Origin: a virus
Virus record (IMG/VR): IMGVR_UViG_3300028840_002651
Location: 1 to 33,893 of that record
Reading direction: 5' to 3' (one strand)
Length of the DNA: 33,893 bases
The notes below the pieces were generated by a model. It saw only the letters and a list, made by a program, of their open reading frames with translations, had not been told where the DNA came from and did no database searches. The stretch's first letter is position 1; every line of letters starts with the position of its first letter. Both the position numbers and the translations under genes were made by a program. Positions 11,444 through 33,893 of the stretch are shown in pieces.

Positions 11444-12357
11444 GTTTGCTCCTGCGCTATGTAGTCGGGGCCCTGCTCGACTAACCGAAAGCTGAACTGA
11501 CGCTCTGAAGGGCCGGAGTATTGACCGACAAGCTCGGGTGGATCGAAATGCATCATAGAGAAGTCTTGGCGAAACGATGACGTTGGAGAGTCAAGCCACA
11601 ATACCGGGTCGCTGCCGAACGACGTATCGGTCTCGTATAGACCTTCGATGTCGTCTACATCGTCGTCACGATGACACGGCAAGGAAACGTCCATAACGCG
11701 TTGCCCTTGCCGTAGGGAATATGGCGTGAGCACGCCAGACGGCGTTCTGCCAAGCTTGCGCGTCGACACCAAGTTTTGATGATCGAAACCAAGACGCGGA
11801 TGCTGTTGCAACTGTCGACGACGCCCGATGAAAACCTCACCCACTTCTGGGGTCATCGACGGAACTACAATCCGCAAGCGCAAAAATTCGACGCCGCTAT
11901 ACCGGTTCGTGTCGAGAAACATCAGCCGCTTCCATCCCGAACCGTACGTCAGATTGTAGCTCGCCTGAGTCGGGGACGGGAACGTGTAGGAATTATCGAG
12001 CTGAACCTCGATAATCGCAGGGAATCCGATGTTCTCGTCGAGATTCGTATTCAAAAGAGCGATCGTATCAAATTCGATACCGGGCGACTCGAACGCAAAT
12101 AGCGCGTACCATAGCGTGCTCACCAATGACGGATAGGACAGTACATGTGTCGCACCGTCCCCGGCACATACCGATAGCTCATGTCCTGCGGCCGAACCGT
12201 CCGCTGTCGCAAACGAGCCCGTCAGATTCCACCGGTGCGAATAAACAGAGTCAGCATACGCCGGACGGCACGCATTATGGGCGAGCACAATAGGGTAACC
12301 AGCCGCATACCCGGCAGCGTCCCTAGCACTCAGAGGAGAGCTAGACCACGCCATCAA
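11431..12357 (-). CDS. tail tip protein, paralogue of the next gene downstream
   Basis: A 308-residue protein directly after the tape measure gene, whose stop overlaps its start. It shares the domain plan and short motifs of the 10532-11443 product over most of its length: H-N-A-C-R-P-A-Y-A-D, S-H-R-W-N-L-T-G-S-F-A-T-A-D-G, P-E-V-G-E-V-F-I-G-R-R-R-Q-L, and F-S-F-R-L-V-E-Q-G-P-D-Y. The two are therefore an old tandem duplication. The central part differs (L-N-T-N-L-D-E-N versus I-N-H-N-L-G-S). A distal tail adaptor role is likely from position, with one copy possibly specialised for host binding. Confidence 0.65.
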   Translation of the reverse strand: MMAWSSSPLSARDAAGYAAGYPIVLAHNACRPAYADSVYSHRWNLTGSFATADGSAAGHELSVCAGDGATHVLSYPSLVSTLWYALFAFESPGIEFDTIALLNTNLDENIGFPAIIEVQLDNSYTFPSPTQASYNLTYGSGWKRLMFLDTNRYSGVEFLRLRIVVPSMTPEVGEVFIGRRRQLQQHPRLGFDHQNLVSTRKLGRTPSGVLTPYSLRQGQRVMDVSLPCHRDDDVDDIEGLYETDTSFGSDPVLWLDSPTSSFRQDFSMMHFDPPELVGQYSGPSERQFSFRLVEQGPDYIAQEQTWHI

Positions 12358-14033
12358 ACGGCCCCTGCGATGCGTATACGCCCGTCACGGATAGCTTCCT
12401 CAATCGATAGGGCAAGGTTGTTCGTTAGGCGACGTCGTTGCACGCGCTGCGGTAGGTCCGTCGTGACGACGGTCGTCTGAAGATTGATGTTTTGCGTCAT
12501 CCCGCCACTAGCGGCGCGCTCGTAGGCTCTCGCTTGCTGCGGGTTCAGGACACGTTCGCCGCGTTGCAGCAATGCGGGTACGCTGTCGGCGCGCTCGTAG
12601 GCTCTCGCTTGCTGCGGGTTCAGGACACGTTCGCCGCGTTGCAGCAATGCGGGTACGCTGTCTTGGCCGGGTATCCCTCCCGTCACGAGTCCGCCCATCG
12701 CGAACCGGGACTTGAAAGCCGATACCGCCGCGAACACGATGCCAGCGGTTGCAGCGCCAATGAGCGGGCCAACGATAGGGATACCAGCTTGAGACTTGAA
12801 CGCTTCTGCGGCAGCCGTCGCGGCCGCAGCGCTAATCTGCTTGATCGCAACTTGAATGATGATGTTCGCAGCGCTCGAAGCAAAATCTTGAAACGCTTCA
12901 CCGGCGCTTTTAGCGCCAGATATCGCAGCACCGAACGAGCTTGCCATAGCTTGCGTTATTTGCTGGGCAGTCTGCTCCGTCATTTGTATCTTTTGCTGCT
13001 CCATTTTCGCGTGCTCTTCGGTCGCCATCCGGGACAATTCAAGCTGCAATTCCCGCTGTTGCTCTTCCATCTCGATAGCGCGCAAACGTTGCGCGAGAAT
13101 ATGGTCTATGTGCGATATTACCGCTGCCTTGCGCGCCGCTAGCTCGTCGATCTGCGTTTGAGTCAACGCGCGTTCTGACGCTCTCGCTTCTTCGACCACC
13201 TTGCGCGTAGTCGCTGCGCCTTCCTTCACGAGCGCGCGAATGCCGTTTATGCGTTGTTCGATGCTCTTTTCCGACGCGGCTTGTTCCTTTTCGATTGCTG
13301 TCCGAAGCGCGTTCGCTTCGTCGCCGGCGTCCTTCATTTCGTCGACGGTCTCACGTATCGAGTCTCGCAGAGACTCTCCTGCGCTCACGAGCATGTCGCT
13401 CGAAAACACTTTGCCGACGGCAATGACTTGGTTGGCTACGACAAGCAAGCTGTCGCTCATCTCAGTAAACACGTACGCGAACGCCGCGCGCACGTCCATC
13501 GCCGTCACTTTCATGAAATTCCACGCCGCGGTGACTTGCTGCAATGCCCATCCGACCCCATCGACCAGCGTCATAGCCGTACGCTCTAGGAACTCGACAA
13601 TCCCTAGCGACAGCATCTTACGGTTCGTCACAAGGTATCGCTCTAGCGTGGTATCGTTCCATTCAACCGCCTTCCCTAGGCCGACAATGACCGGAGTCAA
13701 CACGTCACCGATACGAGCCGAAAGCATTTCGCTATTCAAACGAGCCGTATCGAAAAACTCGACTAGCGGGTCGCCAGCCTTACGAAGGGCTAGGGATGAA
13801 TCTATGACGTCGTCGATAGTGCGTTGAAAGGCGGACGCCGCTTGCTCGGCAAGTTCGAGCGAGTAGTATAGCAACGACACGGCTTGTTCAGCTACCGATA
13901 GAGAACTTTCGGCCGTTTGCCCGAACGATTGCACATTGACTTCGGTCCGTTGCACAGATCCGGACACCTTGTCGAACACCTTGCTAGCGGTGTCCTTGGC
14001 GTTTATGACTATGCCAACTTCCCGCAATGCCAT
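12354..14033 (-). CDS. tail tape measure protein
   Basis: A 559-residue protein that would set tail length and help eject DNA. The central part, about 210-380, is long, highly charged and helical, with coiled-coil character (E-E-Q-Q-R-E-L-Q-L-E-L-S-R). Hydrophobic segments lie near 400-450 (A-S-S-F-G-A-A-I-S-G-A, G-I-P-I-V-G-P-L-I-G-A-A). Near 450 is the common tape-measure motif G-G-L-V-T-G-G-I-P-G-Q-D-S-V-P followed by G-E-R-V-L. The segment D-S-V-P-A-L-L-Q-R-G-E to Y-E-R-A occurs twice in tandem. It follows the G/GT chaperone genes, the usual order. At 559 residues it is short, so a tail of under about 100 nm would be expected. Confidence 0.9.
   Translation of the reverse strand: MALREVGIVINAKDTASKVFDKVSGSVQRTEVNVQSFGQTAESSLSVAEQAVSLLYYSLELAEQAASAFQRTIDDVIDSSLALRKAGDPLVEFFDTARLNSEMLSARIGDVLTPVIVGLGKAVEWNDTTLERYLVTNRKMLSLGIVEFLERTAMTLVDGVGWALQQVTAAWNFMKVTAMDVRAAFAYVFTEMSDSLLVVANQVIAVGKVFSSDMLVSAGESLRDSIRETVDEMKDAGDEANALRTAIEKEQAASEKSIEQRINGIRALVKEGAATTRKVVEEARASERALTQTQIDELAARKAAVISHIDHILAQRLRAIEMEEQQRELQLELSRMATEEHAKMEQQKIQMTEQTAQQITQAMASSFGAAISGAKSAGEAFQDFASSAANIIIQVAIKQISAAAATAAAEAFKSQAGIPIVGPLIGAATAGIVFAAVSAFKSRFAMGGLVTGGIPGQDSVPALLQRGERVLNPQQARAYERADSVPALLQRGERVLNPQQARAYERAASGGMTQNINLQTTVVTTDLPQRVQRRRLTNNLALSIEEAIRDGRIRIAGAV
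12513..12662. repeat. perfect 75-bp tandem duplication in the tape measure gene
   Basis: 12513-12587 and 12588-12662 are identical over all 75 bases when aligned by eye. The unit encodes 25 residues (D-S-V-P-A-L-L-Q-R-G-E-R-V-L to Y-E-R-A) and keeps frame. Perfect identity points to a very recent duplication or a population variant. Confidence 0.97.
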
Positions 14034-20319: not shown

Positions 20320-21525
20320 TCAGCGCGCCTGACGGTAAAGGTCTGGGTTCTCGCGTGCCACGGCTTGATAGGCATTCCCGTACGAAATGCCTTGTTCTGC
20401 CGCTCGTCGCTTCGCAAGCTCGGAAAGCTTGCCGTATCCACCCGTGTCGACGGAACCGCCGGACCCGCTCGAACGGAGCAACTCCGATTGCTCTACCGCG
20501 TCCGATGACGCTTTGAGAATTTTGCATAGCTCGACGTACGTGTCGGGCTCCAACGCCTCTTGGCTCCGTTGCATGATACGCGCAACGGTCGCATGCTCGG
20601 CGCCGGGGACATGCGCGTATTCCTGACGTACTTTGTCGAGCGCTTCGCGTTCCTTCACCTCGCGTTGAACGGTCACGAGGCGCTTTGATAGCTCGACGTT
20701 TTGCGCCTCGACGCGCGCGAACGCATCGGCAAACTCGGGGCTCTTCTTCAGCCGCTTTTTCAATTCGTCGTCGGCCTTGTCGTCGGCCTTGGCCATTTCG
20801 TCCGGCTTCTTTTCGGGGTCGGCCTTATCCATTGGTTCGGCGGGCTCCGAAGCGGCTGCCGGTGTCGCCGCAAGTTCGATCATCGCCAACATGTCGGCAT
20901 AGAGCTCGTCGCCGAGCTTCGCACGGAGCTGTTCGAGCTTCGCAGCCCTTTCTTCTGGGGTCATGTCGCTAGCCTTCTTTTGTGCGCGCTCGGCGCGTTT
21001 GATCAAAACGACGCGCGGCGATACGCGGTCATTCCCGCTTGCGCCGGCGTCGACGACGGATACTAACTCAGCGGTATTGAGTCTCAAGTCGCTGATACGG
21101 AACTTCCCGTTGCCGATAGGGTTCGCGCGGCCCCAACCGCGGAATGATAGCTCCGGTTTTTCGCCGGAGAGAACGTCAGCAAGAACATCGGGGTCCGTGA
21201 CATGAGCAGTGATCACCCACCCATGGGGCCCATCCCCGAACCCGAGCGCAGCGCGCTTGTGACCGTCGATAACGAACGACTCTACAACGTCACCGACCCC
21301 AACGCGCTCATGCATATCCCCGAGCCCGTCGACACCGAGCCCTTTTTTGAACGCCTCGTGACACGCCTTTTCAAGCTCGTCGACAGGGACCCAATGGTCC
21401 TCATGATCGAAAACCGGAGCGCCATTGTCGTCCGTGGAGAGGGCTGCCCAACCGGTGATATTCCCTTGGACGCGGTCGGACGCGACAACGGGGATACGTA
21501 GAGCAATCTTCGTTTGCTGTGGCAT
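20320..21525 (-). CDS. XkdF-like head maturation protease with scaffold domain
   Basis: A 401-residue protein. ATG 21525 has GGGTGG upstream; a longer in-frame start at 21615 overlaps the Com-like gene and adds no recognisable domain. Residues about 1-170 match the XkdF-type (S78_2) serine protease: G-W-A-A-L-S, F-D-H-E-D-H-W-V-P, G-D-M-H-E near 70-73 and E-L-S-F-R-G-W near 125-131, giving H72 and S127 as likely catalytic residues. From about 185 onward it is charged and helical (K-A-D-P-E-K-K-P-D, L-K-K-R-L-K-K-S-P-E), as expected of an internal scaffold. It probably guides head assembly and then cleaves itself. Confidence 0.85.
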   Translation of the reverse strand: MPQQTKIALRIPVVASDRVQGNITGWAALSTDDNGAPVFDHEDHWVPVDELEKACHEAFKKGLGVDGLGDMHERVGVGDVVESFVIDGHKRAALGFGDGPHGWVITAHVTDPDVLADVLSGEKPELSFRGWGRANPIGNGKFRISDLRLNTAELVSVVDAGASGNDRVSPRVVLIKRAERAQKKASDMTPEERAAKLEQLRAKLGDELYADMLAMIELAATPAAASEPAEPMDKADPEKKPDEMAKADDKADDELKKRLKKSPEFADAFARVEAQNVELSKRLVTVQREVKEREALDKVRQEYAHVPGAEHATVARIMQRSQEALEPDTYVELCKILKASSDAVEQSELLRSSGSGGSVDTGGYGKLSELAKRRAAEQGISYGNAYQAVARENPDLYRQAR

Positions 21526-21577
21526 CGGCCACCCGTCCGGTTCGTGGGCACGTCCGGGTGGCCACACACAAAGGATG

Positions 21578-21757
21578 CTATCGCCTATCCGATTGTCCAA
21601 CACGTATCGGCGCACGAGTCAAGTGCGTTGGTTCGGGGACGCGATTAACGTGCCCGCAACGGGAGCACGTAATACGCCATGGGGCGGTAATTATCTCGGC
21701 CAATAGGCGGTTGCAGCGAACACACCTAACGCGCGCTCGCGTCTCAATATTGGGCAT
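21578..21757 (-). CDS. Com-like zinc-finger protein
   Basis: A 59-residue gene that is easily missed. ATG 21757 overlaps the end of the portal gene by 14 bases and the gene ends at TAG 21578, 52 bases before the protease start. The protein has C-V-R-C-N-R-L-L-A at 12-20 and I-T-C-S-R-C-G-H-V-N at 29-38. These two CxxC knuckles, with R-L-L after the first and G-x-x-N after the second, are the signature of the Mu Com family. In Mu, Com binds the mom mRNA and allows translation of the DNA modification gene. No mom-like gene was recognised here, so the target is unknown. No strong ribosome site is seen; translational coupling to the portal is likely. Confidence 0.8.
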   Translation of the reverse strand: MPNIETRARVRCVRCNRLLAEIITAPWRITCSRCGHVNRVPEPTHLTRAPIRVGQSDRR

Positions 21758-23119: not shown

Positions 23120-24232
23120 CTATCGACGTCGCGGCAACGGCCTGCGCAACGGCTTGATCGTGCAACGACAGTTCGCGATCTCAATTATCGGCGCATTGGG
23201 GTCGCCCGGATATCGAAGTCGATTCCCTAGCGGCGTCGTAAACATTTCGCCGACGCGGACCATTTTGTGCCGGTTCATCCGCTCGTGGTGACGTTTCCCG
23301 GACCGTCCATCTTGATACGCCAACCACTTCAAATGCGTGACACCGGTAGCTTCGTAGCCGAGGTATATCCCGCTGTTCTCCGCAATCGCCAGCTCGGTGC
23401 GGGCGATCAACGCCGCGCGAGATTGACTAAACTCATAGAGCACGCCCTTATCGGTTTCGAGCCGTTGGGTCGGGAGTATCCCGCGGCCATGCTCGTCGAT
23501 GCGCGCTTGCACACGGCCCGAGCCGGTGCCGTGCCATTTTTGGCGAATGCGCCGCGCTAGCTCACCGGCCGACGGTTGGGGAACTTCCGTGAGCCCGCTC
23601 GTGATGATGCCTCGCACGCTATCCTTCACCGAAGCATCGACGCTCGCGAGTATCTGTTGGATTTGAGGCTCGCGCGACGCCGCGAAGTCGGACACGCTAT
23701 GCGCCGGCACGACAACGTCGCCAAGAGCTTCACGCGCGAGACGTACCTTGATTTGTCGGAGAGCTTCCTTTGTCGACGGACGCGGTTTCTGCGCGACTAC
23801 GGAGCGGACGACGTCGCGTTCGAGTTGCGTAAACTCAGGCGGTAGCGACGCGGCCACGGTGTTCGGGGCAACGCTTGCATCGCCCAGCATGCGCTGGTTG
23901 CTCGGCGGCAGCGAGAACGACCGAGCGACCCGAGACATACTCGCTTGCCGCGCGTCTCGAAGCTGCGACAAACCGAACCGGTGGATTATGTCGCGTAGCT
24001 CGTTTTCAAGCTCGCCGCGCGATGACTTCGCGAGCTCGCCGCCAAGCAACGTCCTGATTTCCCGGCGACCGAGCGACGCCGCAAAGCGCTGCAACCAAAC
24101 TAGTAGAGCGCGCTCAAACGCAATCGCGCGCGACTCTACACGGTTTACCGACTCCCCCAATATTTGACTATCAGTCGGCATTGTCCACGCGTAGCACGTA
24201 TCGACGTCAGCGCCAACGCGATCGCGCGCCAT
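23120..24232 (-). CDS. Mu gpF-like head morphogenesis protein
   Basis: A 370-residue protein. ATG 24232 overlaps TerL by 26 bases; ATG 24181 is a possible later start. Residues about 280-365 hold the MuF signature: A-L-I-A-R-T-E-L-A-I-A-E-N-S-G, then K-W-L-A-Y-Q-D-G-R, then H-x-x-M near K-R-H-H-E-R-M-N, then the final I-I-E-I-A-N-C-R-C-T-I-K. The N-terminal 270 residues are helical and charged. MuF proteins are minor head components that attach to the portal and may be ejected with DNA. The stop is followed by the portal gene after 8 bases. The basic tail (R-R-P-L-P-R-R-R) could bind DNA. Confidence 0.85.
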   Translation of the reverse strand: MARDRVGADVDTCYAWTMPTDSQILGESVNRVESRAIAFERALLVWLQRFAASLGRREIRTLLGGELAKSSRGELENELRDIIHRFGLSQLRDARQASMSRVARSFSLPPSNQRMLGDASVAPNTVAASLPPEFTQLERDVVRSVVAQKPRPSTKEALRQIKVRLAREALGDVVVPAHSVSDFAASREPQIQQILASVDASVKDSVRGIITSGLTEVPQPSAGELARRIRQKWHGTGSGRVQARIDEHGRGILPTQRLETDKGVLYEFSQSRAALIARTELAIAENSGIYLGYEATGVTHLKWLAYQDGRSGKRHHERMNRHKMVRVGEMFTTPLGNRLRYPGDPNAPIIEIANCRCTIKPLRRPLPRRR

Positions 24233-25592
24233 GTCCTTTCTCGAACCCGACCGAACGGTCGCCGGTTCGATGCCCTGTTAGTTCAGAAATAGCCCATACG
24301 AGCGCATCGACACGGTCGGGAGAATCATCCGAAACGCCGGGTTCCCAAGCACACATTTGGTCCTCGAGGTCGGGGAAAACGCCCACGTGATGGACGCGAC
24401 CTTGCTCGTAGAGCATGCTCACGGGCTCGGCACGAGTCGCTTTGCCACGCGATGCGTGCACCAACCTCACGGGTATCCCGGCTCGTTCTTGCCTTACGTT
24501 TTGCTCTACTAGGTCGCCGCCCTGGTTGCTTTCGCCGACCACGCAATCCGCGCCGTGTGTATCGTACTCAGCAATCGCCCGCCTCGCCCACGACGCGGGC
24601 TTTTGGATCCCGCTCGCGTCCCCAAGCACGTAGCAATGCCCCGTGCGCGCGATTCCTGCGGTCACAATGCCCGTTTCGTTGCTCCCGGGCTTGGCAGTCA
24701 CGGCGGGGTCGATAGCGACGACCACGCGGACAAGGTCGGGAGCCTCACGCACGCGGTGAGCGTCCAGCATCGGCGCGCGCTGCCATAGCGCCCCGGGAGC
24801 TTCGTCAAGTATCTTGGCATGCAGTTCTTGCTGTCCTAGGGTCGTTCCCTCGTATCGCTCTACAATGTAGTCCCGAAATGCCGGCGAAAGATTCTCGACG
24901 TTCTCGTACGTCGAGCCCGTCGTAACGTGCGTCCGTGGTGACGATATCAGGTCTCGGATGGCCCGCACCGGACGCGGCGTCGTCGTGACGACAACCTGCG
25001 GGTGTCGGCCAAGACGCATGCCAAGCTGCAACATGTCGAACGCTTCGAAGTACCGCCATGCTGCCAGCTCGTCGTACCAACCGGCGTAGTATTGCGGCCC
25101 ACGAGCTTGGTCGGGGCGGTCAGCGGAGAACGTCGTCGCAATCGCACCGTTCGGCCACGTGAGACGTCGTTTCGACGGTTCATAGATCGGCTTGAACCAC
25201 GGTGGGCTCGAAGCTAGCACCCCGCTTTCGCCTTCGACACAAACGTCGCGCACGTCCCCCGCAGTCCGCGCGGCAATCGCAAGTCGAGGATATCGTTGCG
25301 CCGCGTCAACGATGAATTGAGCCCCAACGCGCGACTTGCCCCAACCGCGGCCGGCGAGTATCAACCATACCGACCACGTCCCGGGAGGGACGCGTTGCGA
25401 CGGCCTCGCCCAATGGTCAGCCCACCCGTAGCGTAGTTCTAGCGCTTGCAGCGGTGTCAAACGAGCCAACGCATCGCGTCGTTCATTCGTATCCAAACGT
25501 CGCAATCGTTCGATAGTAGTCAAACAAGTTCTATCGGCGGTATCGGGATTTCCGCCCCTATCGGTCGCCATAGGTGCAGACAATATCGGCAT
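24207..25592 (-). CDS. terL: terminase large subunit
   Basis: The packaging motor: ATPase plus nuclease, up to 461 residues. Walker A is G-R-G-W-G-K-S at 81-87 and Walker B is W-Y-D-E at 172-175. The nuclease domain has V-V-A-I-D-P at 291-296 with D295, V-V-G-E-S-N with E354, and D-R-V-D-A-L with D429, fitting the RNase H-like acid triad. The start is uncertain. ATG 25592 and ATG 25571 lie inside the DUF7694 gene. A TTG at 25523 overlaps that gene's stop as TTGA, and the first 23 residues look unlike other terminases, so TTG 25523 may be the true start. It follows TerS and precedes the head genes. Confidence 0.95.
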   Translation of the reverse strand: MPILSAPMATDRGGNPDTADRTCLTTIERLRRLDTNERRDALARLTPLQALELRYGWADHWARPSQRVPPGTWSVWLILAGRGWGKSRVGAQFIVDAAQRYPRLAIAARTAGDVRDVCVEGESGVLASSPPWFKPIYEPSKRRLTWPNGAIATTFSADRPDQARGPQYYAGWYDELAAWRYFEAFDMLQLGMRLGRHPQVVVTTTPRPVRAIRDLISSPRTHVTTGSTYENVENLSPAFRDYIVERYEGTTLGQQELHAKILDEAPGALWQRAPMLDAHRVREAPDLVRVVVAIDPAVTAKPGSNETGIVTAGIARTGHCYVLGDASGIQKPASWARRAIAEYDTHGADCVVGESNQGGDLVEQNVRQERAGIPVRLVHASRGKATRAEPVSMLYEQGRVHHVGVFPDLEDQMCAWEPGVSDDSPDRVDALVWAISELTGHRTGDRSVGFEKGHGARSRWR

Positions 25593-25888: not shown

Positions 25889-26350
25889 TCATGATGACGT
25901 CGTGTCGTCATCAGCATAGAGCCCGAGGGCAGCTTCTATTTCATGCTTCGCCGCCGCGGCCGCGTCGCGATACTCTATCGGCCCGCCGCCCTTGCCCGTC
26001 ACTTCGCGGCGTTCGCGGCGACCCCATTTGTCCGGCCATTTCCGTTCCAGGAACCATGCTTCGGCTTGCCAATGTTCGCCGCCAGCGCGACGTATTCGCG
26101 CCAATGCTTGGCCCTGCGCCCGTCCTTCAGCCTTTTTGTACGCCGTCCAAAATTCGTGCTTCTGGCCGGTCTTTTGTCTCTTTCCATCGCGTAGCCACCT
26201 GCGAACAGTCGTATGACCGACACCGCAACAGAGGGCAGCCGTCTCGAGATAGTTACCGACTTCTACGAGCCTGCATATTTCGTCCGCAATCGCCTCGCTG
26301 AACTTTGGCGGGCGTCCACGTTTACGCCGAGTGCCGTTTACGCTACCCAT
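25889..26350 (-). CDS. terS: terminase small subunit
   Basis: A 153-residue DNA-binding protein. The N-terminus is basic (R-R-K-R-G-R-P-P-K-F). A helix-turn-helix lies at about 30-55 (A-A-L-C-C-G-V-G-H-T-T-V-R-R-W-L). Then comes a helical part with F-W-T-A-Y-K-K-A-E-G-R-A and the frequent TerS motif W-F-L-E-R-K-W-P-D-K-W-G near 98-109. It probably recognises the packaging site and recruits TerL. ATG 26350 overlaps the stop of the glycosyltransferase gene as TAATG. The tail is acidic (D-D-D-T). Confidence 0.85.
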   Translation of the reverse strand: MGSVNGTRRKRGRPPKFSEAIADEICRLVEVGNYLETAALCCGVGHTTVRRWLRDGKRQKTGQKHEFWTAYKKAEGRAQGQALARIRRAGGEHWQAEAWFLERKWPDKWGRRERREVTGKGGGPIEYRDAAAAAKHEIEAALGLYADDDTTSS

Positions 26351-27210
26351 TACGCTGTCACCCTAACATACTCACGGACTATCTTTGGAACGGTTTTTGA
26401 CCAATTGACTTGATGATGAAGCCTGCGATTTTTTGAATTAAGCATCTTAATGATAACTGATGATGGCTGCCAAAGCAAAGTGTAGAACGACTTCACGTAC
26501 GTGCCGTGCTTCGCGTACATTTCTGTAAGCCCGCCGCTATTTGTCTGCGTCTGTTTCTGTACCAGCGATATCTGAGTTGTGGTTACAAACAATTTTCCGA
26601 CACTTCCAAGGCTGACGTATGTATTCACGTCGTCATTCATGCGCCCAACGAAACTAAACGGCCTTGCTGTGCTACATATGAATGAATTCATGCATTTTCT
26701 TAACAGCCTTATCTTCAGTGCATTAGAGCCATTGCCTCCGCCGATAAAGTCGCCGCCCTGAGCTATCGCCAACGAATCAACGCCAGACGCATCACAGAAA
26801 TCGAGCAGTGCTGAAAACACGGCATCTAAGTTTTTTAGACGCAATGGGTCATAGTCAAGGGTGCTATCAAACCTGTATTCAAAACCACTGTAATCGTCAT
26901 CAAGCTGAATAAAGTGCGTAAACCCATGTTCTTTCGCAATGCAAAACGTCGCGTTACGCGCATAGACAACTGTATTCAAATCCCTAAAGTTGTCTCCGAT
27001 ATCAAAAATAGGCGATATGTCATGCTTCCTGAAGACAACCACTTCATCGCCATATCTGCTTATGTACTCGTGCTTTTTTTCGTCATCATCGCCGACAATC
27101 AGCCTAATAGCGCCAGTATATCCGCGCCTGCGAAGCAGTGAATACGTTAGGACTTTGCTAGGTCTTCCTGCCGTGAGAATGAATGCGCAGAAACGTCTGT
27201 TTCTATTCAT
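26350..27210 (-). CDS. TAGT-like glycosyltransferase, candidate DNA base modifier
   Basis: A 286-residue protein read from ATG 27210, which overlaps the ParB gene stop by eight bases; an in-frame start at 27294 lies deep inside that gene. It matches the TET-associated glycosyltransferase pattern: A-F-I-L-T-A-G-R-P at 9-17, T-Y-S-L-L-R-R-R-G-Y-T-G at 22-33, G-D-D-D at 40-43, V-V-F-R-K at 58-62, V-Y-A-R-N at 82-86 and L-D-D-D-Y at 103-107, the last being the metal-binding motif of GT-A enzymes. Known members are predicted to add sugar to oxidised or hydroxymethylated bases in phage DNA. No TET/JBP or C5-methyltransferase gene was recognised in the genome, so the acceptor is unclear. The gene is visibly richer in A and T than its neighbours. 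Confidence 0.75.
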   Translation of the reverse strand: MNRNRRFCAFILTAGRPSKVLTYSLLRRRGYTGAIRLIVGDDDEKKHEYISRYGDEVVVFRKHDISPIFDIGDNFRDLNTVVYARNATFCIAKEHGFTHFIQLDDDYSGFEYRFDSTLDYDPLRLKNLDAVFSALLDFCDASGVDSLAIAQGGDFIGGGNGSNALKIRLLRKCMNSFICSTARPFSFVGRMNDDVNTYVSLGSVGKLFVTTTQISLVQKQTQTNSGGLTEMYAKHGTYVKSFYTLLWQPSSVIIKMLNSKNRRLHHQVNWSKTVPKIVREYVRVTA

Positions 27211-27994
27211 CGTATTCGCTCGACTTGCGTGCATCAGACAACGACTCACATAGCTGCACAAACCCGAGCTCGATCGCTTTGTTATAGTCGACAATCACAA
27301 GCGCAGCTAGTTCCATCAGCTCTTGCACTTCTCTCGGAGAATGAGCGTAATAATCAGCGATAAGACCATAGTTGAACGATGTATATCGTTGCGCTGCGCG
27401 CACCAAGAAATCGCGCACGTCGTCTTGCACATCGCTTTCTTCTATTCTCCGGAGAAGCGAATCGGTCCTGCTTGTGTCGTACAAATCGCCTATTTCTGGA
27501 CAGCGATCGCTAGGCTCATAAATTGGAGACTCGACCTTGTCTGTATACGGATTGTCGCTTTCTTGTTCGTCGTCTGTGACACTCAACAGAGCGTCTAACC
27601 TTAGCGTTGAGAAATCGTTATCCCCAATCGACCCGCGTATTTCCGCAAGCAACGAGTCAACATCATCATTAAACGACCCAGTGATATGCGGATTATTCGC
27701 CGAGACGTTCGCCGCCTTCTCCTCGGCCTCACTCCAATCCACGACACGGACTGGGAAACGGTCGCCGCTGGCTACTTGGAGGGCTCCATCTACAAGCTGA
27801 GCCCCGAGCTTACGGAGCTGCGCCACGCGTTGATGCCCACATACTATACGCCCGGTTCGAGCATTCCACGTGATGCCGCTAATATCTCCGAACCTATCGA
27901 TAGACGACGCGAGGCCATCTGCCGACGCATCGTCAATGCATCGCGGATTATACTCCGCCGCAATAAGATCGTCCATCGTCCTGAGTTTATACAT
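27203..27994 (-). CDS. ParB-domain protein linked to the glycosyltransferase
   Basis: A 263-residue protein. Residues about 1-110 form a ParB/Srx-type domain: E-Y-N-P-R near 14-18, then G-D-I-S-G-I-T-W-N, G-R-I-V-C-G-H-Q-R-V, and N-N-P-H-I-T-G-S-F-N. In many phage proteins this domain precedes a DNA methylase, but here no D-P-P-Y motif is found. Instead the C-terminal half (about 165-250) is a helical domain with E-P-S-D-R-C-P-E-I, F-L-V-R-A-A-Q-R-Y, F-N-Y-G-L-I-A-D-Y-Y-A and S-P-R-E-V-Q-E-L-M-E. ATG 27994 overlaps the previous stop as TAATG and the end overlaps the glycosyltransferase start, so the two are coupled. Role: probably guides or assists modification; inferred. Confidence 0.7.
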   Translation of the reverse strand: MYKLRTMDDLIAAEYNPRCIDDASADGLASSIDRFGDISGITWNARTGRIVCGHQRVAQLRKLGAQLVDGALQVASGDRFPVRVVDWSEAEEKAANVSANNPHITGSFNDDVDSLLAEIRGSIGDNDFSTLRLDALLSVTDDEQESDNPYTDKVESPIYEPSDRCPEIGDLYDTSRTDSLLRRIEESDVQDDVRDFLVRAAQRYTSFNYGLIADYYAHSPREVQELMELAALVIVDYNKAIELGFVQLCESLSDARKSSEYDE

Positions 27995-28332
27995 TACATA
28001 TCCTTCGGAGACGGCGCAAATTCGAACAAGTCTACCGTAGAGCCGTCACTAAACTCAACAGTGACCGGGTTCAATCGTAGCAATCCGTCGCCAGCGTAAT
28101 TGCACGGGCCCTTCTCCGTGCCTATCCCAACGCGCGCGCCTAACGCGCGCCCAATGCACGAAAAGGCTACTTCGCCGTCCGTAGCTCCGGCACGATGCCA
28201 GTCGGATATGCGCGCGACGTACCCGCAGCTCGGACACACGAACTGCCAGTCCATTGGGTCCGCCCCAAACCGAGCTATGGCTTCATCCCGCCACGCTTCA
28301 TACGTCGTCCGTCGTTTCGTCGTCGTTTTCAT
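27994..28332 (-). CDS. VVA0879-like zinc-binding protein
   Basis: A 112-residue protein. It has F-V-C-P-S-C-G-Y near 31-38, then S-C-I-G-R near 58-62, then P-C-N-Y-A-G-D-G-L near 76-84. Four cysteines in this arrangement, with C-I-G-R, fit my memory of the VVA0879 family of phage proteins, which has no known function. The last part is beta-rich (V-T-V-E-F-S-D-G-S-T). The stop overlaps the ParB gene start as TAATG, placing it in the same coupled group as the ParB and glycosyltransferase genes. It overlaps the upstream gene by 35 bases. Confidence 0.65.
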   Translation of the reverse strand: MKTTTKRRTTYEAWRDEAIARFGADPMDWQFVCPSCGYVARISDWHRAGATDGEVAFSCIGRALGARVGIGTEKGPCNYAGDGLLRLNPVTVEFSDGSTVDLFEFAPSPKDM

Positions 28333-29163: not shown

Positions 29164-29545
29164 AGCCCAGCTTCCTCAACCAGTCGATTGCCTCACGCGC
29201 TCCGTAACAAACGCTAACAAGCCATCCTATCGATCCAAGATGCTCCAACCAAAGTTGCTGATTTTGGCTCACACGTCCGCCGTCAGCGCGCTTCAATTCG
29301 ATTGCGACGCCCGCGCAAGTTGGATTGCGCGGAGGTCTATCAAAAATAAGCACGTCGGGAACGCCCGCCTGTACGCCGAGCCGTCGCCGTTTTGCCATAT
29401 AGCTCGGCATTGCATTCGTTTCGTTCGGAACGTGACACCACCAAAGCCGCCACCCATTGAGCCACGCCGCGAGCGCTTCTTGCTCCTGCTCTTCGTAGAC
29501 GCGCGGCTTTACGATGCGCGACTTGCGTTTTGCTCGTACGGCCAC
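29153..29545 (-). CDS. VRR-NUC domain nuclease
   Basis: A 130-residue PD-(D/E)XK enzyme read from GTG 29545. The VRR-NUC pattern is present: E-E-Q-E-Q near 18-22, a basic part with R-R-R-L-G-V-Q-A-G-V-P-D-V-L near 53-66 (D64), then G-V-A-I-E-L-K-R near 79-86 (E83, K85), then S-Q-N-Q-Q near 93-97. The spacing between D and E-x-K fits a working nuclease. Phage members act as Holliday-junction or structure-specific nucleases in recombination and packaging. It is the first confident gene of the leftward run. Confidence 0.9.
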   Translation of the reverse strand: MAVRAKRKSRIVKPRVYEEQEQEALAAWLNGWRLWWCHVPNETNAMPSYMAKRRRLGVQAGVPDVLIFDRPPRNPTCAGVAIELKRADGGRVSQNQQLWLEHLGSIGWLVSVCYGAREAIDWLRKLGYGE

Positions 29546-29823
29546 GACTCCCCCGGAAAGTTAGTTGATCGAAGTCCGCCGGTAACTCGTTTGGTTATCT
29601 CCGGGAGAGCCGTGTCACGTACGTTCGAGCCGAGCCACACATGGGCGGATATAGGCCGGCTCGACGAGACGCAGGGAATACCGCCGACGCCCGCACCGTA
29701 CGCATCGATATTCTGACCGCTGACGGTCGGAATCGCCGATGACAGTGCGTCTCCACACGCACGAGTACGCAACTTCATACCAAAGCGCATGGAGCCACAT
29801 CCGCATAGATAGGCGATGCTCAT
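29509..29823 (-). CDS. uncertain ORF at the head of the leftward run
   Basis: A possible 104-residue protein from ATG 29823. It overlaps the VRR-NUC gene by 37 bases. The N-terminal 30 residues are Cys- and Arg-rich (C-G-C-G-S-M-R) and look non-coding-like, while the later part (T-V-S-G-Q-N-I-D-A-Y-G-A-G) is plausible. The start codon lies inside a perfect inverted repeat (29822-29843), which could hide or regulate it. I recognise no family. If not a gene, 29546-29823 is leader sequence. Confidence 0.35.
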   Translation of the reverse strand: MSIAYLCGCGSMRFGMKLRTRACGDALSSAIPTVSGQNIDAYGAGVGGIPCVSSSRPISAHVWLGSNVRDTALPEITKRVTGGLRSTNFPGESWPYEQNASRAS

Positions 29824-29843
29824 GGCGACAGAGATGTCGCCAT
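29822..29843. repeat. perfect 9-bp inverted repeat, ATGGCGACA / TGTCGCCAT
   Basis: The arms 29822-29830 and 29835-29843 match perfectly around a four-base loop (GAGA). It covers the possible start codon at 29823 and lies in the leader of the leftward transcript. It could be an operator or a translation-control hairpin. Confidence 0.85.
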
Positions 29844-29894
29844 ATTCTAGCTATCCCCGAAATCCCCATATGTGCGAGTAGAGCACACACTGTA

Positions 29895-29940
29895 GGTCGA
29901 CGCAAGCGGCTGTCGGTTGGCTGCACCGCTTGCGTCGACC
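29895..29940. repeat. perfect 15-bp inverted repeat with 16-base loop
   Basis: GGTCGACGCAAGCGG (29895-29909) and CCGCTTGCGTCGACC (29926-29940) are exact reverse complements. It lies between the leftward promoter and the first leftward gene. No T run follows on either strand, so a simple terminator is unlikely. It may be an antitermination or attenuation element or a protein binding site. Confidence 0.9.
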
Positions 29941-29988
29941 ATGACTGTGCAAGAACCGGGTCGCTGACCTCGGTCCAATGGCGGCCCC

Positions 29989-30017
29989 ATTATGCCCGCC
30001 TTACGGGGCCGCGTCAA
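29989..30017 (-). promoter_or_regulatory. leftward sigma70-type promoter
   Basis: On the minus strand TTGACG (30017-30012) and CATAAT (29994-29989) are 17 bases apart, a near-consensus pair. Transcription would start near 29982 and drive the leftward run. The leader carries the 15-bp and 9-bp hairpins. Confidence 0.65.
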
Positions 30018-30024
30018 AAATACG

Positions 30025-30042
30025 CGGTGTCTATAGACACCG
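30025..30042. promoter_or_regulatory. 18-bp perfect palindrome, candidate operator
   Basis: CGGTGTCTATAGACACCG is fully self-complementary. It covers the likely -35 box of the rightward promoter and lies 7 bases from the -35 box of the leftward one, so a bound repressor could control both. Confidence 0.75.
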
Positions 30043-30062
30043 GTCGACTTATGCTCTACTAT
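30034..30062 (+). promoter_or_regulatory. rightward promoter for the 30.1-31.4 kb operon
   Basis: TAGACA (30034-30039) and TACTAT (30057-30062) are 17 bases apart. The first overlaps the 18-bp palindrome and the second lies within the next inverted repeat. A start near 30069 would leave a short leader before ATG 30096. Confidence 0.55.
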
Positions 30063-30074
30063 ATATGTAGAGCA
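30052..30074. promoter_or_regulatory. inverted repeat TGCTCTAC-N7-GTAGAGCA over the -10 region
   Basis: Perfect 8-bp arms with an all A/T loop (TATATAT). It contains both orientations of the heptamer GTAGAGC, which recurs through the genome. It overlaps the rightward -10 box, so an operator role is plausible. Confidence 0.7.
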
Positions 30075-30095
30075 GCACGAACGGAGAAATGACAA

Positions 30096-30305
30096 ATGGC
30101 ACCCGACGAGCTAGCGCAGTCATGGGGACAACACGAGGCTGACTGCATTCGCGCGCGACTGCAAACGGAGACACTTTTCGCCATTGCATCTAGCATCATC
30201 GATAATGCTGGTGCGGATGTCGTATGCGATGTCTTCGATATGATGGGCTATATCCCGCAATTCCTAGCGAAATATCCTGCGATACCAGACACGGAGAGCA
30301 TGTGA
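30096..30305 (+). CDS. small acidic protein, first gene of rightward operon
   Basis: A 69-residue protein with GGAG nine bases before ATG 30096. It is acidic and helical (A-D-V-V-C-D-V-F-D-M-M-G-Y) with no motif I recognise. Its stop TGA shares a base with the next ATG, so the two are coupled. Position right after the palindromic promoter suggests early expression and possibly a role against host functions, but this is inference only. Confidence 0.6.
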   Translation: MAPDELAQSWGQHEADCIRARLQTETLFAIASSIIDNAGADVVCDVFDMMGYIPQFLAKYPAIPDTESM

Positions 30306-30511
30306 TGAACGCAACAGCAATGCCGATATCGATACCCTCTACCCTCGGTCCCGTCGAGACGCGACACGAGCTAGAGCTGTCAGTAGGGACGCGAGACGGC
30401 CACGTCGTCGTCGAATTCGGGACGCCGATATCGTGGCTAGCCCTACCGCCAGACGTCGCAACTGACCTCGCGATAGCGCTGCACGAAGGGGCAGAAATGA
30501 TGGAGACGTAA
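30305..30511 (+). CDS. small conserved-type phage protein
   Basis: A 68-residue protein from ATG 30305, overlapping the previous stop by one base; in-frame upstream ATGs lie inside the previous gene. Pattern: H-E-L-E-L-S-V-G-T, then G-H-V-V-V-E-F-G-T-P-I-S-W-L-A-L-P-P-D-V-A, then an amphipathic helix A-L-H-E-G-A-E-M-M. Two or three strands then a helix. Similar small proteins occur in phage early regions without known function. Confidence 0.65.
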   Translation: MNATAMPISIPSTLGPVETRHELELSVGTRDGHVVVEFGTPISWLALPPDVATDLAIALHEGAEMMET

Positions 30512-30532
30512 CACACACACGGAGACGGAATC

Positions 30533-31045
30533 ATGGCCAAGAAAACGCAACCCAACACAACCGGAGAGACCAAAGCAACGAAGCCGCTCGTCGGCAAGCT
30601 CGATAAAAAAGACCCGATTCAGGCCATCGCAGAAATGGTCGCTGATGGGTACAAGGACAGCGCTATCGCAAAAGCGCTCACGGCTCGCGGGATCCCGCCA
30701 ATGGAAGGAAATCGGGCATGGTACGCTACCAAGATCGGAAAGCTCCGCAAACGCGGCCTCATCCCTGCAACCCGCGACAAGGCGCTCCCCGTGCGTCCTA
30801 ACGCAATCATGTGGGCGTGCGTATGCCGCCAGCCAGGGATCTGGGAGTGCCGGATGCATGCCGCGGACGAAGGACGCGCATTCGACTCCGCGCTGAACGC
30901 GGTCCGCGAGGCGACCGCAGCAGGGGCACTCAAGGCAGTCGTCGTCCCCGACGCGCAACTTGCGCGTTTCATGCATATCCATGCATCTGATATCTTCGAG
31001 GTGTGCGGGGGGACACCCGCCGTCCCCGCTGCGAAACAAGCATAG
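30533..31045 (+). CDS. putative DNA-binding protein with basic helical domain
   Basis: A 170-residue protein with GGAGA before ATG 30533. The Lys-rich N-terminal 30 residues look disordered. Residues about 30-80 (A-E-M-V-A-D-G-Y-K-D-S-A-I-A-K-A-L, then W-Y-A-T-K-I-G-K-L-R-K-R-G-L-I-P) have the size and spacing of a helix-turn-helix of the recombinase or resolvase kind. The second half (about 88-170) has C-V-C-R and W-E-C and then an alpha/beta stretch. No family recognised; DNA binding is inferred. Confidence 0.6.
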   Translation: MAKKTQPNTTGETKATKPLVGKLDKKDPIQAIAEMVADGYKDSAIAKALTARGIPPMEGNRAWYATKIGKLRKRGLIPATRDKALPVRPNAIMWACVCRQPGIWECRMHAADEGRAFDSALNAVREATAAGALKAVVVPDAQLARFMHIHASDIFEVCGGTPAVPAAKQA

Positions 31046-31053
31046 GAATCGCC

Positions 31054-31359
31054 ATGCTCGTCGCGCAACTGTCGGTCCGAGGGCTAGCCCTATTGCGGAC
31101 ATTGGCGCGCGCCCGAACACCCCTATCTACTAGCACCCTCCGACAAAACTTCGCCGAACTTGGCGCCGCCCTGAGCGCGCAAGAACTGTCGTCAGCGCTC
31201 CGGCGCCTTGAACGCCGCGGCTACGTGACGTCAACAATCGGTCGAGCCCCGACCCGCACCGGGGTCGATTCCGCTGCGCGACTATGGGCGCCCACTCCGC
31301 TCGGCGAACGGCAAGCGGATACCGCTGTCGCGTCGTTGCGCCGGCTATCTGTTCTCTAG
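31054..31359 (+). CDS. winged-helix protein, last gene of rightward operon
   Basis: A 101-residue protein. ATG 31054 has AGGAA seven bases upstream; an in-frame start at 31003 lies in the previous gene. The layout fits a winged helix: L-S-V-R-G-L-A-L-L-R-T-L-A, then T-L-R-Q-N-F-A-E-L-G-A-A-L, then S-A-L-R-R-L-E-R-R-G-Y-V near 65-76, then a wing (R-L-W-A-P-T-P-L-G-E). This is like MarR/PadR or replication-initiator winged helices. It may regulate phage or host genes. A terminator follows five bases after the stop. Confidence 0.65.
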   Translation: MLVAQLSVRGLALLRTLARARTPLSTSTLRQNFAELGAALSAQELSSALRRLERRGYVTSTIGRAPTRTGVDSAARLWAPTPLGERQADTAVASLRRLSVL

Positions 31360-31363
31360 GCCA

Positions 31364-31387
31364 GGGCCGCTAGAACGGCGCCTTTTT
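31364..31387 (+). terminator. intrinsic terminator of rightward operon
   Basis: GGGCCG (31364-31369) pairs with CGGCGCC (31376-31382) with one bulged base and a six-base loop, followed by TTTTT (31383-31387). It ends the four-gene rightward operon. Confidence 0.75.
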
Positions 31388-31693
31388 CGTCGATAGGCAC
31401 CCAACCCTAGGGGAAGGACGTTGCGAGCAACACGGGGCCATTCTGTGGGCGAGGGATGCCCTCTCCGTAGCCCGGTCGGGATGGCGCTGCGTGAGGCCAA
31501 CACGCTCCCGCAACGCGGACTCCCTCGCAGCGACTTCTGGCGGCGGTTGCTCCCCGCCGGGTGGGTAGCGTTCCCAAAGATACGACAGCTGGATCCACGG
31601 GCGGTCAGAATGGCGCAGCCGATGCTCCCACAGTTCCGTCGGCCACCCCCTCGGCGCGATTGCCGGCTGCGGCAAGCTTGCGTCGGTACTCAT
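31370..31693 (-). CDS. uncertain ORF downstream of the replication gene
   Basis: A possible 107-residue, Arg- and Pro-rich protein that overlaps the end of the replication gene by 89 bases and the terminator of the opposite operon. Composition (P-P-G-G-E-Q-P-P-P-E, R-H-P-D-R-A-T-E-R-A) and the lack of a ribosome site make it doubtful. Without it, 31388-31604 holds no gene that I can support. Confidence 0.25.
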   Translation of the reverse strand: MSTDASLPQPAIAPRGWPTELWEHRLRHSDRPWIQLSYLWERYPPGGEQPPPEVAARESALRERVGLTQRHPDRATERASLAHRMAPCCSQRPSPRVGCLSTKKAPF

Positions 31694-33188: not shown

Positions 33189-33893
33189 ATGAAAGTACAC
33201 TGCTCATTCTGCGACACGGTAATGGCATGCTCGGGGGCGCTGTTGCGCGTCGAACACCCGTACAACCCGCCGTCCGAGGCATCTATGGAGGGGACTGCCG
33301 CGCACGCGGCCATCGAAAAGATACTGAGTTGTAGAGCGAATCACGTGGACGTATGTGAAGAAATCGCCGATACACACGGCGTAGGACTCGACTCATTGAC
33401 ATTTTTGGTCGGAGAGGCTCGACGAGCTTGGTCGGCCCTGCGCGACAACTTCCCGAATCCCCAGTTTGAGAAGGACCTTAGATCAGCGTTGGTACGTGGC
33501 AGGGCCGACCTTATCTCCTACGGGCCCGACCACGCGAGCATCCTCGACTGGAAGTTCGGGCAATCAACTCGCCCTCACCCGCACCAGCTCACGGCGTACG
33601 CATCGGCGCTCCGCGCGGATATCGGGATCCCGACGAGCGGTCATATCGACGTTTTCGAGGTCCACGTGCGGGCCGGCACGTGGCAACACGATATGGTCAC
33701 GGCAGACTACCTCGACCAATGGGAGTCAGCGCTCGCGCGCAGGATCCAACGACCGGGCGAGCAATGGGCTCCAGCGACAGAAACCTGTCGCTACTGCCCG
33801 TCACGGATGGATTGCCCGGCGAGAGCTGGACACGCGCGCAATGTCGCGGAGCTAATCACCGATATCGTCGACCTCGGACCGACGCGCGATAGC
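33189..33893 (+). CDS. Cas4/DUF2800-like PD-(D/E)XK nuclease, N-terminal part
   Basis: Start of the gene that continues at position 1; the window end cuts it after 235 codons. ATG 33189 has GGGG about nine bases upstream. The active site is complete: H39, D107 in G-R-A-D, D120 and K122 in L-D-W-K, Q133 and Y137 in H-Q-L-T-A-Y. One Fe-S cysteine, C14 in V-M-A-C-S-G, lies here; C200, C203 and C209 follow near the end. The order H, D, E/D-x-K, Q-x-x-x-Y and the flanking cysteines is that of Cas4-type nucleases. It is the first gene of the rightward recombination operon. Confidence 0.9.
   Translation, partial: MKVHCSFCDTVMACSGALLRVEHPYNPPSEASMEGTAAHAAIEKILSCRANHVDVCEEIADTHGVGLDSLTFLVGEARRAWSALRDNFPNPQFEKDLRSALVRGRADLISYGPDHASILDWKFGQSTRPHPHQLTAYASALRADIGIPTSGHIDVFEVHVRAGTWQHDMVTADYLDQWESALARRIQRPGEQWAPATETCRYCPSRMDCPARAGHARNVAELITDIVDLGPTRDS
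33750..33893. repeat. terminal direct repeat, right copy
   Basis: Identical to bases 1-144. See the left copy: it marks the closing point of a 33,749-bp genome. Confidence 0.97.

Follow-up and report, generated by a model that had tools for sequence, protein, structure and literature searches.

A gene for a ParB-like protein followed by a gene for a glycosyltransferase of the TET-associated (TAGT) family forms a widespread two-gene cassette, carried by hundreds of bacterial viruses and one archaeal virus. By analogy with related gene systems, we propose with moderate confidence that the two proteins add sugar to phage DNA close to packaging, and that they do so without a conserved phage enzyme that premodifies the base. 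If this proposal is right, a very common phage cassette sugar-modifies DNA in a manner unexplained by current pathways, the solitary TAGTs gain a defined partner, the terminase-proximal slot becomes recognizable as a site where phages exchange DNA-modification enzymes, and a two-gene system is open to laboratory assay; sugar-marked DNA would also be relevant to restriction, CRISPR resistance and tool enzymes. The cassette was studied starting from one viral genome, the whole 33,893-nucleotide stretch of IMG/VR record IMGVR_UViG_3300028840_002651, here termed the window, whose relevant features are the following:

1 to 144, no strand: direct terminal repeat, same as 33750 to 33893
24207 to 25592, minus strand: terminase large subunit (TerL; PF03237 E=2e-22, PF17289 E=5e-15)
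25889 to 26350, minus strand: terminase small subunit (TerS; phrog_4102 E=1e-28)
26350 to 27210, minus strand: TAGT-family GT-A glycosyltransferase (286 aa; ATG at 27210; PF20691)
27203 to 27994, minus strand: ParB-like protein (263 aa; phrog_620 E=2e-29)
27515 to 27547, minus strand: linker motif YTDKVESPIYE of the ParB-like protein, residues 150 to 160 (low model confidence; Tyr 150 and Tyr 159 invariant)
27994 to 28332, minus strand: VVA0879-family CxxC protein (NCBIfam NF041591 E=6e-27)

A preliminary description of this DNA had taken the genome to be complete and had placed three overlapping genes ahead of the terminase genes, and both points are borne out. The direct terminal repeat is exact over its 144 bp, and an exonuclease-like ORF runs through the joined genome ends and closes there, so that the assembly can be considered circularly closed. 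Transcription on the minus strand proceeds from the VVA0879-family gene through the ParB-like, TAGT and TerS genes to a gene for a DUF7694 protein and then TerL. As read from the sequence, the VVA0879-like and ParB-like genes overlap by 1 nt (TAATG), the ParB-like and glycosyltransferase genes by 8 nt (ATGAATAG), and the glycosyltransferase stop and TerS start by 1 nt (TAATG); these overlaps fit translational coupling. The GC content is 58-62% in the VVA0879-like, TerS and TerL genes (58% for the genome), against 52% for the ParB-like gene and 45% for the TAGT gene. The low values of the latter two genes suggest a recent acquisition of the cassette; the pair probably has an outside origin, and VVA0879 was probably not gained together with it. 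We tried the VVA0879-like gene as a cassette member, as the preliminary description had it, and rejected it: no copy stands beside approximately 160 other loci, and the gene is incidental to the cassette. Elsewhere in the window, the tape measure protein (12354-14033) contains an exact 25-residue tandem duplication at residues 458 and 483. The protein encoded at 20320-21615 was considered as a DNA methyltransferase on the basis of its PHROGs label (phrog_1530) and rejected, the label being misleading: Pfam identifies an XkdF-type head protease in the matching region. About 2 kb at 29545-31605 carry no confident gene assignment, and a plus-strand ORF at 30533-31045 has a weak recombinase-domain match (PF07508 E=2e-4) barely over the cut-off.

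The TAGT identity that had been proposed for the transferase stands. The protein matches PF20691 with E=7e-31 (108 bits; cut-off 27.5) and phrog_842 with E=2e-63, and carries the A-G-R-P, Y-A-R-N and D-D-D-Y motifs on which the proposal was built. Across 84 aligned relatives, R86, D106, D107, N193, D195, K241, R264, H266 and H267 are invariant and position D105 is Asp in 80 and Glu in 4 (numbering follows the aligned sequence, which is the ATG-based number plus 1). The best Foldseek matches of the AlphaFold2 model (pLDDT 93.1, pTM 0.91) are GT-A enzymes (E=1e-5), including chondroitin polymerase and N-acetylglucosaminyltransferase I. As judged from this model, the protein confidently adopts a GT-A fold, with a DxD-type metal motif, a C-terminal His and intact catalytic residues; it would thus be expected to move a sugar from a nucleotide-sugar donor in a metal-dependent manner. 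The fold is silent on the acceptor. Protein and polysaccharide transferases, e.g. polypeptide GalNAc transferases, are also among the matches; GT-A enzymes act on proteins, sugars and small molecules, and also on DNA. At one locus (L177:641-2331) the transferase occurs in two tandem copies, the first of which lacks the C-terminal His-His and looks degenerate.

The ParB-like partner joins a ParB-CTPase fold (approximately residues 1-135) to a helical C-terminal domain (approximately residues 150-260). The protein has no Pfam match of its own; its family profile matches the solved ParB folds of Noc and Spo0J over residues 1-130 (E=1e-12 to 3e-11). In the predicted structure (pLDDT 86.7, pTM 0.57) the C-terminal domain is all-helical; no Pfam family was found for it, and a fold search with the whole model returned matches to the N-domain only, leaving the C-terminal domain without a PDB match. 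These results agree with the earlier view that a ParB-type domain is here followed by a C-terminal domain unlike that of the methylase fusions. Canonical partition ParBs possess a central HTH and a C-terminal dimerisation domain, whereas the protein described here has the helical domain instead, and no parA-like family recurs among the neighbours of 95 cassette loci. Within the nucleotide-binding box, G53 is present in 79 of 79 aligned sequences and the box-II arginine, R56, in 73 of the 79 and in the window copy. A recent survey of ParB-CTPase folds (PNAS 2025, PMC12704722) reports that this arginine is required for nucleotide binding in such folds, and the cassette family has mostly kept it. 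The same survey also covers phage ParB folds that are joined to methylases and enriched in prophages; its main text names no glycosyltransferase partner, the sole match to 'glycosyl' being a reference title. The N-domain of the cassette family is acidic (median pI 4.65) and, for that reason, may fail to bind DNA unaided; the transferase is basic (9.0).

In the C-terminal part, Y150, Y159, R203, Y216, Q224 and D236 are invariant among the 79 aligned sequences. The YTDKVESPIYE linker motif also begins a set of shorter partners of approximately 130-150 residues, which consist of the C-terminal domain only and precede the transferase at loci L007 (Vibrio phage pv27), L020, L059, L082, L163 and L164. 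These loci occupy about four separate positions on the transferase tree, in which the placements of T6 and of L190, both on very long branches, were disregarded. Because some loci retain this domain alone, and do so in several parts of the tree, we regard the C-terminal domain as the constant element of the partner and the ParB N-domain as optional.

The association of the two genes is very tight. A tblastn search found the transferase in 34 annotated phage records, and IMG/VR holds at least 545 stretches with the transferase and at least 566 with the ParB-like protein. The transferases were reduced to 96 representatives with less than 80% identity, among which the 92 with enough upstream sequence were evaluable. 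Mapping of the neighbourhoods in related phages, as suggested in the preliminary description, showed the pair to be constant: the ParB-like protein or its C-domain lies directly upstream on the same strand in all 92 non-redundant loci, and in 87 of these the two genes overlap or stand no more than 20 nt apart. Conversely, a reverse search with motifs of the ParB C-terminal domain found 72 further loci, every one of which has the transferase (72/72). The ORFs surrounding 95 loci, 2,066 in all, were clustered, and the only families present in 10 or more loci were TerS, TerL and the portal protein. Known hosts of the cassette viruses include Escherichia, Lactobacillus, Nocardia, Vibrio, Bacteroidota, relatives of Desulfovibrio and the archaeon Haloarcula. 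In E. coli, the cassette resides in a Rac-like prophage and is present, with at least 80% coverage, in 887 of the 5,426 complete genomes, and this occurrence in about 1 of 6 genomes makes it easily tested in the laboratory. The ynaK gene of K-12 is a 254-nt remnant of the cassette. Its counterpart in E. coli LCP30S3_I3 (L280:4001-4795) is annotated as 'partial', yet its ORF of 263 aa is intact; the annotation seems to have been shaped by the truncated K-12 form.

Several loci depart from the simple two-gene order. At L035:1428-2216, L043:4701-5468 and L055:8068-8835, a C-domain-only partner is separated from the transferase by a gene for a Methyltransf_23-type methyltransferase, and L190:1282-3510 presents a methyltransferase, a ParB protein with a different C-terminal region and a distant TAGT, in that order. 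In one clade (L111:10704-11660, L114, L120, L135, L146, L157 and L158), a histidine-phosphatase/cytidylyltransferase (TagD-like) fusion is inserted between the ParB and transferase genes and, judging from its domains, may make the activated donor.

The position of the cassette bears on its substrate. Of 79 transferase loci, 64 have the TerL start no more than 2 kb downstream, with a median gap of 436 nt, and loci encoding ParB-methylase fusions behave alike (57 of 65; median gap 396 nt). Proximity to TerL was found in none of the 5 evaluable C-domain-only loci and in 64 of 74 with a full ParB (Fisher p=1.3e-4, computed on related and therefore not independent loci); with the former away from TerL and most of the latter near it, the N-domain is likely the connection to packaging. 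A further occupant of the slot is found in Mycobacterium phage Zemanar (L287:1-5206), where genes for a ParB protein, a TET/JBP-like oxygenase, an amino acid:DNA transferase and a P-loop nucleotide kinase precede the terminase; the ParB N-domain is homologous to that of the cassette (E=4e-12), and the ParB and TET genes overlap by 14 nt. PHROGs labels the Zemanar TET protein a queuine tRNA-ribosyltransferase. This operon of the Coopervirus phages Zemanar and Nigel is a DNA-hypermodification gene set, and no TAGT was found in either genome. Because the slot elsewhere holds the ParB-methylase fusions and the Zemanar TET operon, DNA would be the common substrate of the slot and hence the likeliest target of the cassette. 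The case for DNA is built on the company of the ParB domain and on the T6 enzyme discussed below, not on chemistry, and against it, proximity to the terminase could in part reflect shared ancestry of the slot instead of function.

The main rival, to which we assign a minor but real share of the probability, is that the pair glycosylates a protein: for example a capsid or terminase protein, its own ParB-like partner, or a protein of the host. Such a target would suit the polypeptide GalNAc transferases among the fold matches, the two invariant tyrosines in the poorly ordered linker of the partner, the packaging and head genes that adjoin the cassette, and the name 'GREB1-related' that PGAP gives to the E. 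coli copy, GREB1 being reported to glycosylate a protein. It accords less well with the ParB N-domain, which otherwise leads DNA-modification enzymes in this slot (the methylase fusions and the TET operon), or with the T6 TAGT, a PF20691 member that acts on DNA (PMC13216743). A role at the cell surface, in which the transferase would alter the host envelope for superinfection exclusion and lie near the terminase by chance, is very improbable. Phages are known to carry envelope-modifying glycosyltransferases; a ParB or C-domain partner nevertheless accompanies the transferase in 92 of 92 loci from viruses whose hosts have very different envelopes, an archaeal one included, and the place beside the packaging genes is conserved.

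If DNA is the target, the source of the acceptor has to be considered. The preliminary description recognized no TET or C5-methylase, and searches of the window with PF12851 (TET), PF00145 (C5-methylase), PF01555 (N6/N4 methylase) and PF00303 (thymidylate-synthase family) were likewise empty. Among 49 cassette records, several of which are fragments so that each single absence is weak, none yielded a TET, and a C5-methylase, a thymidylate-synthase-family enzyme and an N6/N4 methylase above cut-off occur in 1, 1 and 3, respectively. Complete genomes in the set include c5, jlb1 and HHTV-2; c5 (31.8 kb), jlb1 and the window phage, all complete, lack every premodifier family tested, and no such family appears in more than 6 of the 95 neighbourhoods. 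As a positive control, the PF12851 search recovered the TETs of Zemanar and Nigel (E=4e-8 to 5e-8, under Pfam's own cut-off); mycobacteriophages served for this purpose after 399 Pseudomonadota genomes gave no match at all and were uninformative. That the window encodes a premodifier (TET, methylase or other) too divergent for recognition is accordingly a slim prospect: there is room for one in the approximately 2 kb without confident genes (29.5-31.6 kb), yet a search that reached the divergent mycobacteriophage TETs found nothing in 49 cassette records, and no unknown family recurs in the 95 neighbourhoods.

An acceptor that varies by phage, premodified by the host or by a phage-specific enzyme (a 5-hydroxymethyl pyrimidine, 7-deazaguanine or another base), is unlikely, although single examples exist. 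Vibrio phage pv27 encodes, together with the pair, an enzyme of the thymidylate-synthase family, L118 has a C5-methylase gene 1.1 kb ahead of ParB, and L059 (11681-12780) a DpdA-like transglycosylase and QueD downstream of its C-domain-only cassette, whose presence suggests that the DNA of this phage contains 7-deazaguanine. Each is the only one of its kind among the 49 records or 95 neighbourhoods, however, and the complete c5, jlb1 and window genomes have none of the tested families. A general link to 7-deazaguanine was considered and rejected, QueD with DpdA being confined to one locus. The earlier suggestion of a base made by the host is improbable as a general solution: viruses that carry the pair infect Escherichia, Lactobacillus, Nocardia, Haloarcula and Bacteroidota, and for hosts so diverse we know of no DNA modification in common. 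Its description of the genes as a reduced or new modification system holds in part; a new system is possible, whereas 'reduced' is a poor term for a pair that is regularly without TET across a very large number of viruses.

We therefore return to glycosylation of phage DNA by the ParB-TAGT pair as the preferred reading, and envisage the following mechanism. The TAGT would work with the helical C-terminal domain as its constant partner, and the optional ParB nucleotide-binding fold would probably bring both proteins to the phage DNA close to where packaging starts. There they would mark the DNA just ahead of packaging, most likely as protection against host nucleases. With TET and C5-methylase dispensable, the acceptor would be a canonical base or a base of other origin. 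The more specific version, in which the pair places its mark at packaging on a canonical, not prehydroxylated base (e.g. on an exocyclic amine), is conceivable and we hold it only tentatively. Known DNA glycosyltransferases use an existing hydroxyl or sugar as acceptor, and we know of no case in which a canonical base is glycosylated directly; such a reaction, if real, would be of a categorically new type, employed by many phages and by one or more archaeal viruses.

A 2013 study by Iyer et al. may describe ParB-TAGT neighbours, and the literature on HHTV-2 and the cassette-bearing Lactobacillus phages (restriction resistance, base analysis) offered nothing decisive. PF20691 is treated as the family to which the T6 enzyme belongs, the enzyme that puts a second glucose onto glucosylated hydroxymethylcytosine, and 288 of 753 phage genomes encode a TAGT without an alpha- or beta-glucosyltransferase, its substrate being given as unknown (PMC13216743); a search of that text found no mention of ParB. 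The T6 beta-glucosyl-HMC-alpha-glucosyltransferase scores above the PF20691 cut-off and shares the GT-A fold and DDD motif with the window TAGT. When the small family alignment was compared as a profile with just the T6 sequence, no match resulted, although both match PF20691, and the two enzymes are only distantly similar.

The T6 pathway differs in that no dCMP hydroxymethylase, alpha- or beta-glucosyltransferase or TET was recognized in the window, and the cassette TAGT, in contrast to the T6 enzyme, is always accompanied by a ParB-like partner. The T-even glucosylation of hydroxymethylcytosine depends on a thymidylate-synthase-family dCMP hydroxymethylase, which is absent from the window, and TET-dependent base glycosylation needs both a TET/JBP enzyme and a C5-methylase, neither of which the window encodes. 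The ParB-N6/N4-methylase fusions of phages have an N-domain homologous to the cassette ParB (up to 53% identity) and a like position ahead of the terminase; their effector is the fused methylase, whereas the cassette has a separate glycosyltransferase and a helical partner domain. The Coopervirus operon likewise has ParB first, an overlapping effector gene and the terminase last, with a TET, an amino acid:DNA transferase and a nucleotide kinase where the cassette has its TAGT.
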